Below, in pieces: positions 1,863 to 4,370 of a stretch of DNA of 64,000 nucleotides. Under the pieces are notes generated by a model. The model searched no databases. It worked only from the letters and a program-made list of their open reading frames with translations, and was not told where the DNA came from. A program made the translations under genes and the position numbers. This DNA comes from Muriicola jejuensis (GTDB lineage Bacteria > Bacteroidota > Bacteroidia > Flavobacteriales > Flavobacteriaceae), in the NCBI RefSeq assembly GCF_010671595.1, contig NZ_JAABOP010000001.1, forward strand, positions 1,426,001 to 1,490,000. Reading direction: 5' to 3'. Positions within the stretch are counted from its first letter, which is position 1, and every line of letters begins with the position of its first letter.

Positions 1863-1935
1863 AGAAAAGGGCGGAGAAGCCTCCACCCTTTTCGTCCCAA
1901 ATCTTACCATAAACTTAACCTACTTATGCTATGGC
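1863..1935 (-). ncRNA. tandem small-RNA gene, copy A
   Basis: This is one of three near-identical minus-strand units. A 39-base conserved core (1896-1934; minus-strand 5' end CCATAGCATAAGTAGG) is followed by a hairpin and a short U run. In copy A the hairpin is GGGUGGAG/CUCCGCCC as minus-strand RNA. One pair is U-G in that RNA but would be a C/A mismatch on the plus strand, which supports minus-strand transcription. Upstream lies TAATTTAG (1940-1947), one mismatch from TAnnTTTG, with TTG 19 bases further up (1967-1969). The core differs from B and C at one loop position. No ORF fits. It may belong to a described flavobacterial RNA family such as Flavo-1, which I could not check. Confidence 0.68.
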
Positions 1936-2065
1936 ACTACTAAATTACTGGTATTGTGAGAAATAACAAAAAAAAACAAGGAAATTTTGGACAATAAGAT
2001 ACTTTCAGCCAAAGAAGAAATGGACTGAAAAGAAAAGATTTCAGGTAATATTCTGATAATCAGAA

Positions 2066-2138
2066 ATAAAAAAGGCAGGATAGATCCTGCCTTTTTTCCC
2101 CAAATCTTACCATGAACTTAACCTACTTATGCTATGGT
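2066..2138 (-). ncRNA. tandem small-RNA gene, copy B
   Basis: Second copy of the unit. The core is at 2098-2137 and the terminator is a perfect 13-bp stem with a 4-base loop (2068-2080 with 2085-2097) ending in six U. Its stem sequence (GGCAGGA/TCCTGCC) differs from copies A and C on both arms, so the helix is conserved while the sequence is not. Directly upstream is the best promoter of the array, TTG-N18-TACATTTG, placed so that transcription would begin at or next to the first base of the conserved core. That coincidence is the main reason for calling this an independent RNA gene and not a purF 3' UTR element. Confidence 0.74.
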
Positions 2139-2142
2139 CCTC

Positions 2143-2174
2143 CAAATGTAATTCAAGGCCGGGCGCCGCAAAAA
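2143..2174 (-). promoter_or_regulatory. promoter of small-RNA copy B
   Basis: On the minus strand, TTTTTG (2174-2169) is followed by 18 bases and TACATTTG (2150-2143). Both elements match the Bacteroidota -33/-7 consensus with canonical spacing. The -7 element ends five bases before the conserved RNA core. Confidence 0.72.
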
Positions 2175-2292
2175 GGTTTTGGACAAAATCCTTTTTAATC
2201 AGATGAAATACCATTTGAGGAGGATTGACGGGCTGAGGTTGAAGAAACGGACTACAAAAGGCGGTATTGAGGGCATTCTGGACGGTTGAACA

Positions 2293-2366
2293 ATAAAAAA
2301 GGTGGAGAAGTCTCCACCTTTTTTGCCCCAAATCTTACCATGAACTTAACCTACTTATGCTATGGC
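2293..2366 (-). ncRNA. tandem small-RNA gene, copy C (nearest purF)
   Basis: Third copy. The core is at 2326-2365 and the terminator stem is GGUGGAG/CUCCACC flanked by A and U runs (2295-2307 with 2312-2324). Its -7 element is TACATTTA (2372-2379), one mismatch from consensus, and no TTG is found at -33. Instead two direct repeats containing TGCATTTCATCG lie 20 bp apart upstream (2409-2444), where activators usually bind. This copy starts about 106 bases after the purF stop on the same strand. A possible fold pairs CCAU at the 5' end with AUGG 25 bases on, leaving the invariant GUAGGUUAAGU in a loop. Confidence 0.7.
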
Positions 2367-2471: not shown

Positions 2472-4370
2472 CTAATAGGCCCGTTCGTTCTTGCCTTCAT
2501 AAAAGTTGATGAATGCCCTGTTTACGACCTTATTTCCTCCCGGAGTGGGATAATCGCCTGTAAAATACCAGTCGCCCAGATTCTTCGGACACGCCTGGTG
2601 GAGGTTCTCAATGGTCTGGTAGATGATCTCGACCTCGGCTTTGATTCCTGCCGGACTCAGGAGCTCCCCTATCTTCTGAGAGATCTGATCCGCACTGAAG
2701 GGGGCGTAAAATTCCTTTACATAATTGATGATCTCGCTGTCCTGCCGGTGGATCTGTTCTTTGCATTTGTGATAGATGTCCTCCACGAGAGACAGACTGT
2801 TGTTCTCACGGTGCAACTCCAACGCTGCCTTGAAGGCGATGAAATCCTCCAGTTTTGCCATATCTATCCCATAGCAATCGGGATAGCGGATCTGGGGAGC
2901 AGAAGAAACCACGATGATCTTCTTGGGCGACAGCCGGTCGAGGATACCTAATATGCTGTTCTTTAAAGTAGTGCCACGGACGATACTGTCATCTATGATC
3001 ACCAGGTTGTCATTTTCGGTAACCGAGCCATAGGTAATATCGTAGACATGTGCCACCAGGTCATCCCTGCTGCTGTCCTGGGTGATAAACGTCCTCAGCT
3101 TGGCATCCTTTATAGCGACTTTTTCAATTCTCGGCCGGATCTCGAGGATCTCGTGTAATTCGTCCCTGCTGATGCCCGATCCGATCTCCAGGATCTGTTC
3201 TTCCTTTTTCTTGTTCAGGTAGTTCTGGGCTTCTCTCACCATCCCCAGAAAGGAGGTTTCTGCCGTATTGGGGATATAGGAAAAGACGGTATTCCTGATA
3301 TCGTGATCGATGGAGGTAAGGATCTTGGGGAAAATGAGCCTCCCCAGTTCCTTCCGTTCCTGGTAGATCTCAAGGTCGCTCCCTCTCGAGAAATAGATGC
3401 GTTCAAAGGAACACGCCTTCCTCTCCATGGGTTCCATGATCTTTTTCACGCTTACTTTTCCGTTCTTCTTGATGATGATCGCATGCGCGGGGTCCAGTTC
3501 TTTCACGGCCTGGTACTGAACGTTGAAAACGGTCTGTATGGCCGCCCTTTCAGAGGCCACGACCACAACCTCCTCGTCCTGGTAAAAATAGGCAGGACGA
3601 ATACCAGAAGGGTCCCTGAGTACAAAGGCATCCCCGTGTCCGAGCATGCCGGCCATGGCATATCCGCCATCCCAGTTCTTCGCAGCCTTTCTAAGGATCT
3701 TTGCCAGGTTGAGACGCTCAGCGATCAGGGGGGAGGCTTCCATCTTATTGAACCCTTCCTTTTTGATCTGTTTGTAAAGTTTTGCGACCGCGTCGTCCAG
3801 GAAATGACCGATCTTTTCCATGACCGTTACCGTGTCCGCCATTTCTTTGGGGTGCTGTCCCAGCTGTACGAGGTTGTCGAACAACTCGGCCACGTTGGTC
3901 ATATTGAAGTTTCCGGCTACGATCAGGTTCCTGTGCATCCAGTTGTTCTGGCGCAGGAAGGGGTGGACGTTCTCTATACTGTTTTTCCCGAACGTACCGT
4001 ATCGAACATGGCCCAGAAGTACTTCGCCAATGTAGGGGATATGCTTCTTTTGAGCCTCTGCATCATCGGCGTATTCCGGATGCTCCACAAAGGCCCGGTT
4101 GACGCGGTCCGTGATCTGGGCGAAGATATCCTGAATCGGCTGTGCCTGTACGGACCTTACCCTGCTCATATATCGCTGTCCGGGTTGTACATCCAGTTTG
4201 ATACTCGCAAAACCAGCCCCGTCCTGTCCCCGGTTGTGCTGCTTCTCCATCATGAGGTACATCTTGTTCACCCCGTAGAAAGCAGAACCGTATTTTTTCT
4301 TGTAATAATCAAGGGGTTTCAGCAATCGGATCAGCGAGATCCCGCATTCGTGTTTTATGGCGTCGCTCAT
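2472..4370 (-). CDS. purF: amidophosphoribosyltransferase (long Bacteroidota form)
   Basis: This 632-residue class II glutamine amidotransferase should make 5-phosphoribosylamine from PRPP and glutamine, the first step of purine synthesis. Cys9 in KHECGISL is the expected nucleophile and would be exposed by removal of a short propeptide. The phosphoribosyltransferase PRPP loop is seen as NLVIIDDSIVRGTTLKNS. The protein is longer than the ~500-residue E. coli enzyme, with extra sequence in both halves. The upstream neighbour is a PfkB kinase, and purN lies two genes further up. A terminator separates it from pfkB, so read-through or an unseen promoter must drive it. The small-RNA array follows downstream. 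Confidence 0.9.
   Translation of the reverse strand: MSDAIKHECGISLIRLLKPLDYYKKKYGSAFYGVNKMYLMMEKQHNRGQDGAGFASIKLDVQPGQRYMSRVRSVQAQPIQDIFAQITDRVNRAFVEHPEYADDAEAQKKHIPYIGEVLLGHVRYGTFGKNSIENVHPFLRQNNWMHRNLIVAGNFNMTNVAELFDNLVQLGQHPKEMADTVTVMEKIGHFLDDAVAKLYKQIKKEGFNKMEASPLIAERLNLAKILRKAAKNWDGGYAMAGMLGHGDAFVLRDPSGIRPAYFYQDEEVVVVASERAAIQTVFNVQYQAVKELDPAHAIIIKKNGKVSVKKIMEPMERKACSFERIYFSRGSDLEIYQERKELGRLIFPKILTSIDHDIRNTVFSYIPNTAETSFLGMVREAQNYLNKKKEEQILEIGSGISRDELHEILEIRPRIEKVAIKDAKLRTFITQDSSRDDLVAHVYDITYGSVTENDNLVIIDDSIVRGTTLKNSILGILDRLSPKKIIVVSSAPQIRYPDCYGIDMAKLEDFIAFKAALELHRENNSLSLVEDIYHKCKEQIHRQDSEIINYVKEFYAPFSADQISQKIGELLSPAGIKAEVEIIYQTIENLHQACPKNLGDWYFTGDYPTPGGNKVVNRAFINFYEGKNERAY

Follow-up and report, generated by a model that had tools for sequence, protein, structure and literature searches.

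In the window, by which we mean the whole 64-kb stretch of DNA analysed here, a short sequence recurs three times on the minus strand between two convergent genes. One of these we take to be purF, following a first-pass annotation of the same DNA, and the other is presumably, judging by its sequence, a superoxide dismutase gene, sod. The locus raises the questions of what these repeated units are, how they are controlled and on what they might act, in a family (the Flavobacteriaceae) in which post-transcriptional control is little explored.

Three putative small RNA genes

The units, here called copies A, B and C (Table 1), each start with CCATAGCATAAGTAGGTTAAGTTYATGGTAAGATTTGGG and finish in a hairpin and a T-run on the minus strand, and share a near-identical core of 40 nt. 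Within them, CATAAGTAGGTTAAGT has exactly three matches in the window, all on the minus strand (1913-1928, 2116-2131 and 2344-2359; up to 3 mismatches allowed, with a mean of 0.40 in shuffled sequences), and, with up to 2 mismatches allowed, no further copy was found in the rest of the 3.3-Mb genome, in agreement with the three core copies annotated at first pass. The tandem arrangement described there is also seen, but the spacing of 196-229 bases is replaced by measured distances of 203 and 228 bases between core starts. Each copy folds as a 5' hairpin followed by a terminator hairpin, and none of 200 shuffled sequences per copy folds as well, which bears out the hairpin noted after every copy. 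Only the terminator of copy B is recognised by a strict consensus scan, and the U-run of copies A and C sits mostly within the terminator stem. The hairpin of copy A contains, as had been claimed, a U-G pair that forms only in minus-strand RNA, the plus strand giving C-A. Upstream of copy B lies TTG-N18-TACATTTG, which ends 5 nt before the core as originally described, and the near matches reported for the other two copies correspond to TACATTTA in copy C and TAATTTAG in copy A. A sigma-70 type promoter scan of the region gave no match, as is expected for this phylum.

Table 1. Coordinates of the array, its predicted elements and its neighbours in the window
Feature	Position	Strand	Basis
sod (superoxide dismutase), conserved convergent downstream neighbour	1173-1781	plus	synteny
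sRNA copy A (last copy, sod side)	1864-1935	minus	predicted 5' end 1935; fold and covariance-model match at 1864-1934
Terminator hairpin, copy A	1864-1893	minus	fold; missed by simple terminator scan
5' hairpin, copy A (loop GUAGG, stem CCAUA/UAUGG)	1906-1935	minus	fold and covariation analysis
A-type conserved promoter region TTTGTTATTTCTCACAATACCAGTAATTTAG	1940-1970	minus	comparison of 51 A-type copies
sRNA copy B (middle copy)	2068-2138	minus	predicted 5' end 2138; fold and covariance-model match
Terminator hairpin, copy B	2068-2097	minus	fold and simple terminator scan
Promoter, copy B, TTG-N18-TACATTTG	2143-2171	minus	sequence reading; TAnnTTTG family-wide
Two-site operator, copy B, GTATTTCATCTGATTAAAAAGGATTTTGTCCAAAA, period 20	2177-2211	minus	weight-matrix scan; top score in 864 kb of genome
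sRNA copy C (first copy, purF side)	2295-2366	minus	predicted 5' end 2366; fold and covariance-model match
Terminator hairpin, copy C	2295-2324	minus	fold; missed by simple terminator scan
-7 element, copy C, TACATTTA	2372-2379	minus	sequence reading
Two-site operator, copy C, GCATTTCATCGATATTTTATGCATTTCATCGCCTT, period 20	2406-2440	minus	weight-matrix scan; score second in 864 kb
purF, conserved upstream neighbour, same strand as array	2472-4370	minus	synteny

A TAnnTTTG element (at least 5 of 6 bases) is present upstream of 336 of 348 distinct copies, compared with 101 shuffled and 102 reverse-complemented controls, and it ends 5 nt before the core in 267 of the 348; full matches number 153, compared with 6 for shuffled upstream sequences and 3 for reverse-complemented ones. 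Directly before CCATA, 337 of the 348 copies have a purine, which is likely the start site. In an alignment of 47 copies, both sides change in 9 of the 12 base pairs of the terminator, and the covariation values of the whole structure are reached by none of 500 shuffles. A hairpin forms from the 5' part, with 98.3% of its cells paired across the 47 copies and a double change in 1 of its 9 pairs; with so few base changes, this hairpin is backed mainly by its fold. A 1-nt indel splits the cores into two groups (GGTAAGATTT and GGTAGATTT), so that no peptide frame is conserved and a peptide product is excluded. An own promoter, a conserved non-coding core and an intrinsic terminator, by which trans-acting sRNA genes are identified, are all found here.

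The copies follow an order within the array. A-type copies, told by their promoter, are present in 39 of 119 arrays (window included) and stand last on the sod side in all 39, five of which carry a second A-type copy elsewhere. Zero to four B-type copies lie between the A type and the first copy, which is usually of C type, and many arrays consist of C types alone. The core ending GGGACG, as in copy A, occurs in 39 of the 51 A-type copies compared with 1 of the 295 others.

Distribution and synteny of the family

No Rfam family reached its cut-off in the 64-kb window, including Flavo-1 (RF01705), the family singled out for comparison in the first-pass annotation; Flavo-1 is also absent from the 54 Rfam matches at E up to 10 in the interval 1780-2500. 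The best of the matches below the cut-off (STnc40), and most of the others examined, rest on the terminator hairpin. No prior description of the RNA family was found in the literature listings searched. As judged from its sequences, the family is real and conserved, lies outside Rfam, and is apparently new as a family in that literature.

Within the genus, eight of nine genomes match (that of the window counted), the ninth being 68% complete. Copy C is identical at 71 of 71 bases in the eight matching genomes, all of which also have copies A and B. In an alignment of four species of the genus, identical columns account for 120 of 120 in the cores, 89 of 96 in the terminators, 36 of 48 in the promoter zones and 68 of 111 in the operator zones, but only 104 of 296 in the rest of the spacer, as anticipated by the first-pass description of the spacers as unrelated. 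In two genomes of the genus (G003 and G006, loci L004 and L010) the starts of the first and second copies are about 1.1-1.2 kb apart as compared with about 228 bases, so that something lies between them.

A covariance model built from 47 of 62 distinct copies was run on 395 genomes across the phylum. All matches above 60 bits lie inside the Flavobacteriaceae, in 33 of the 41 genomes of that family drawn, and matches outside it reach 25-33 bits only. Twenty of the 25-33-bit matches were examined, and the 19 of them outside the Flavobacteriaceae resemble unrelated terminators. A 33-bit match within the family (L223 in genome G627) has the appearance of a degenerate copy. With one genome taken per genus, the RNA is found in 45 of 60 Flavobacteriaceae genera (E <=1e-6).

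A further sample, of named loci, comprises at least 118 stretches matching the core pattern in species genomes; the 80 titles listed are those of Flavobacteriaceae genera or metagenome bins, a few of which give only Bacteroidetes, Bacteroidota or Flavobacteriia. Core conservation in this sample is partly by construction, since the loci were selected by the core, whereas the phylum-wide covariance search was not so selected. With 2 mismatches allowed, the 16-mer matches in 279 of 299 family genomes, a result discarded as evidence because the reversed pattern matches about as often; exact and tandem matches alone are counted.

Among the matches listed, purF lies upstream on the same strand at 102 of the 118 named loci and sod downstream on the opposite strand at 93; one or both are kept at 114, and of the remaining four, two sit no more than 140 nt from an end of the stretch retrieved. 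The first copy follows the purF match by 70-150 nt at 97 of the 102 listed loci. These 118 loci carry one copy in 55 cases, two in 26, three in 19, four in 12, five in 5 and six in 1. One five-copy array (G497:C4:179089-180128) has a spacing of 240-243 bases and is apparently a recent tandem amplification.

The regular position of the first copy behind purF could suggest that the units are terminators of the purF 3' UTR, or products of read-through processing, and not independent genes, and between purF and copy C a simple scan, which also misses the hairpins of copies A and C, detects nothing like a terminator. Most copies, however, have their own fixed-distance promoter, purine start and operator, the arrays reach six copies, and the core, which is unneeded for termination, is nonetheless invariant in the genus alignment, all of which makes this reading very improbable. 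The chance that this is a REP-like or mobile repeat at the DNA level, its hairpins being incidental, is close to negligible: the units are tandem and multi-copy as such a repeat could be, but there are only three in the genome, nearly all the named relatives listed have them at a single conserved locus, their covariation includes G-U pairs, and their promoter is conserved. The purine start, the fixed-distance promoter, terminator covariation, the core indel and synteny uphold the first-pass view of multi-copy RNA genes as opposed to a duplicated stretch, and the array units are predicted, with little room for doubt, to be RNA genes.

The double-site operator and a LytTR response regulator

Two features were added to those of the first-pass annotation: an operator of two direct repeats ahead of both copy B and copy C, and a distinct conserved promoter region at copy A. 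In most copies of the family a direct-repeat pair of the form GCATTTCATCTAAWA lies upstream of the promoter; in the majority of cases its proximal site begins 54-55 nt ahead of the RNA. With 2 of the 348 copies dropped for having too little upstream sequence, a double site (joint score >=10) is present in 273 of 295 non-A upstream sequences at any period and in 268 at a period of 20 (239) or 21 (29), against 0 of 295 shuffled and 11 of 295 reverse-complemented controls; the weight matrix was trained on the same 295 sequences that it scored, and the fixed period and the tests at regulator genes are the independent part of this result. At the same score the double site is found upstream of 7 of 51 A-type copies, and copy A of the window is without it. 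What A-type copies have in common in its place is TTTGTTATTTCTCACAATACCAGTAATTTAGT or a close variant of it, a region deeply conserved among the 51.

In a scan of 864 kb of the genome (forty stretches and the window), copies B and C have the two highest-scoring double sites, and eight further matches reach 15 bits or more. Sixth among these ten, at 19.5 bits, is a site 24 nt before the ATG of P0001, which encodes a 230-residue response regulator with REC and LytTR DNA-binding domains (Pfam E 1e-18 and 4e-21) and whose neighbours, judging by their sequences, we take to be priA and rpsF. The genome has nine LytTR genes, and among them the double site is confined to P0001, the next scoring 3.6. 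Apart from B and C, three matches outscore the P0001 site (20.1-22.7), and no called gene begins in the 2.8 kb downstream of them, so the score by itself is unspecific. Sites for LytTR proteins are reported to be 9-bp direct-repeat pairs with a spacing of 10-13 bp, which usually activate from a position upstream of the -35 (PMC11347149), and the sRNA double sites fit this rule, being direct repeats of about 9 bp upstream of the -35 box in 268 of the 295 non-A upstream sequences.

The site is also seen at the regulator gene in other genomes. In the 30 best-matching of 60 genomes (own included) it is mostly 24-47 nt before the start, and 21 of the 30 upstream regions beat the best of 600 shuffles (14.4). 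A further 16 genomes, in which weak and discordant cases are included, contribute 5 regions that do so, leaving 20 of 46 overall at or below the shuffle maximum. A close regulator (E <=1e-75, a cut-off placed at a gap in the E-values after the gap had been seen) and the RNA occur together in 42 of the 60 genomes; the regulator alone is found in 1, the RNA alone in 3 and neither in 14 (Fisher p 5.5e-10, a statistic that ignores shared ancestry). Each of the three RNA-only genomes has a weaker, distant match to the regulator, and one of them, G054, still has the operator. The single genome with a regulator and no RNA match, G018, lacks the operator at the regulator gene and is weak in the pairing test described below. 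Since the regulators, leaders and genomes are related, the counts of co-occurrence, sites and leaders are not independent of one another. The RNA family, its promoters, terminators and operators, its synteny and its co-occurrence with the regulator are what the sequences directly back; control of the non-A copies by the LytTR protein is a good probability.

Predicted pairing and the proposed circuit

The loop region CAUAAGUAGGUUAAGUU is complementary to AACUUAACCUACUUAUG, a sequence with a start codon at its end. CCUACUUAUG spans the regulator start in L334 (which is only 42% identical and perhaps no orthologue), and other regulator leaders across the family carry ACUUAACCUA, CUUAACCUA or CCCAUUUAUG. 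Against 44 distinct regulator leaders (GTG or TTG being assigned by hand as the start of some), the loop gives a mean duplex z of -1.41, with p <0.05 in 14, compared with mean values of +0.38 for purF (3 of 75), +0.49 for sod (0 of 84) and +0.34 for rpsF (2 of 45) control leaders. Over positions -25 to +8 of the regulator leaders, 1 of 1194 distinct dinucleotide shuffles is as good as the loop, or 3 of 1000 with CAT kept, and the signal is found in three separate leader groups. Operator half-sites are not its cause, given z of -0.9 for the operator part of the leaders and -0.2 for that of 150 sRNA upstream sequences. Pairing of the linker with the regulator leader was rejected, p <0.05 being reached in 4 of 44 leaders as against 10 of 75 for purF and 5 of 45 for rpsF.

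The first-pass annotation had suggested the loop as a target-pairing seed, and the complementarity to regulator leaders agrees with this, but no excess of targets for the loop, the linker or the whole core was found among 730 start regions of the genome (24 shuffles each), which included stretches around many of its 28 SusC-type matches. The leader of the regulator in the genome itself pairs with the loop at a modest -8.5 kcal/mol, short of significance (p 0.195). Pairing at start codons is the predicted mechanism that we lean towards; the leaders being related, the p value in the own genome being 0.195 and the 730 regions giving no excess, we put RNA feedback on the LytTR regulator at about even odds. 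For whole-core pairing, the fourth of the 730 start regions is that of a 185-residue protein (L266:17401-17958, plus strand), which looks like a sigma factor.

The closest parallel in layout is with FopS (RF04319) and GibS, which are described as multicopy sRNAs of Bacteroidota with their own promoters and a conserved 5' part followed by an intrinsic terminator, and with a seed that pairs near start codons, as is predicted for the array loop (PMC11697453, PMC7366714). The FopS model has 71 positions and the array units are about 70 nt long, and the short string UUCAU-GUA-AGAUUU is common to both. In B. thetaiotaomicron there are 14 FopS paralogues, reported to repress translation of SusC-like transporters and to be countered by RbpB (PMC11697453). 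FopS differs in having 12-15 copies per genome and not a tandem array at one locus, a single-stranded 5' end (seed R1') where the array RNAs have a 5' hairpin, and RbpB as partner, whereas the present genome has no match to RRM_1 (PF00076) at E <=0.001 (a control was positive in 2 of 14 genomes, Bacteroides included); the LytTR-type double site is a further difference. No FopS match above the cut-off is found in the genome, the model scoring copy C at 19.9 and copy B at 16.8 bits (copy A is unlisted) against a gathering cut-off of 56. We note that a FopS-like unit with a seed-like GTGTTTTTCATTGTCTTAATTTTAA and a terminator-like hairpin scores 43.9 bits against the same cut-off in another genome of the order (L364 in G397). 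The same draw contains two genomes with a full FopS match, and G397 is from a different family than these.

Three alternatives touch on the function and control of these RNAs. They could be flavobacterial homologues of Bacteroides FopS/GibS in which the linker UUCAUGGUA(A)GAUUU serves as seed for pairing with the start regions of SusC, and both the like layout (PMC11697453) and the alignment of UUCAUGGUA--AGAUUU by the FopS model point that way. This is nonetheless distinctly unlikely, in view of the low model scores, the lack of any match at E <=0.01 in Flavobacteriaceae among 296 genomes of the phylum, a similarity that is reached by 195, 2393 and 655 of 20000 shuffles (1 to 12%), the presence of UUCAUAGUA in 9 of 10 FopS loci examined, and the genome's lack of an RRM_1 match; on present sequences the array RNAs are analogous in layout and work like FopS in part, but are not members of that family. 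The RNAs could instead be real sRNAs whose invariant loop and linker titrate a protein, mRNA pairing not being their main function: loop and linker are near-invariant in the 348 copies (partly through sample selection) beyond what one seed needs, multiple copies suit titration, and start regions show no excess pairing, but the complementarity of the loop to regulator leaders in three separate groups, and the lack of a candidate protein, with no RRM_1 match in the genome, leave this unlikely. A comparably small chance attaches to an operator that belongs to another regulator, either another LytTR protein or one of AraC type, with P0001 merely co-regulated. Proteins of AraC type are also compatible with half-sites about 21 bp apart, 20 of the 46 regulator upstream regions do not exceed the shuffle maximum, and three higher-scoring sites in the 864 kb scanned are away from gene starts; against this, the site obeys the LytTR rule, is present at one LytTR gene of nine, and is missing at the regulator gene of G018.

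The reading that we prefer, and consider somewhat better than an even bet as a whole, is of an sRNA family driven by a LytTR protein, acting by start-codon pairing and feeding back on its activator. The three genes of about 70 nt would encode members of one trans-acting sRNA family, each with its own promoter and terminator. P0001 would bind the pair of direct repeats that immediately precedes the -33 box and activate the purF-side copies (C and B in the window), and the sod-side copy A would answer to other control. The exposed invariant loop region would then pair across start codons and lower translation, with the mRNA of the LytTR regulator as one conserved target and hence negative feedback, as for OmrA/B and ompR. 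LytTR binding at the sites, activation, pairing and repression are the steps that we infer. More tentatively, and with rather less than even confidence, the circuit may be ancient and Flavobacteriaceae-wide, comprising an autoregulated LytTR regulator and tandem sRNAs between purF and sod whose loops pair across start codons, the regulator's first, without an RbpB-type RRM hub, in an array ordered as LytTR-driven copies first, an expandable middle and a last copy on a different signal. If true, this would be a feedback between response regulator and sRNA using a LytTR protein in a phylum, the Bacteroidota, that reportedly has no Shine-Dalgarno sequences in its mRNAs (PMC6847099). With an RNA family this compact and conserved, with candidates for both activator and target and with exact sites, the whole circuit becomes testable in a laboratory strain.

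Regulatory RNAs under LytTR response regulators include RNAIII under AgrA in Staphylococcus and VR-RNA under VirR in Clostridium, which are larger single-copy RNAs in contrast to the tandem 70-nt copies here. The circuit logic resembles that of OmrA and OmrB of E. coli, paralogous sRNAs that are activated by a response regulator (EnvZ/OmpR) and repress the mRNA of that regulator (PMC12692685); sequence and regulator class differ, and the feedback proposed here is a prediction only. For Flavobacterium psychrophilum, 85 new independent RNAs have been reported; Rfp18 of that species is, like the array RNAs, a conserved flavobacterial sRNA with strong structure and is said to pair via a third stem-loop, whereas the array RNAs have two hairpins (PMC9723704). 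One of Rfp1-89 may already be an expressed member of the array RNA family.
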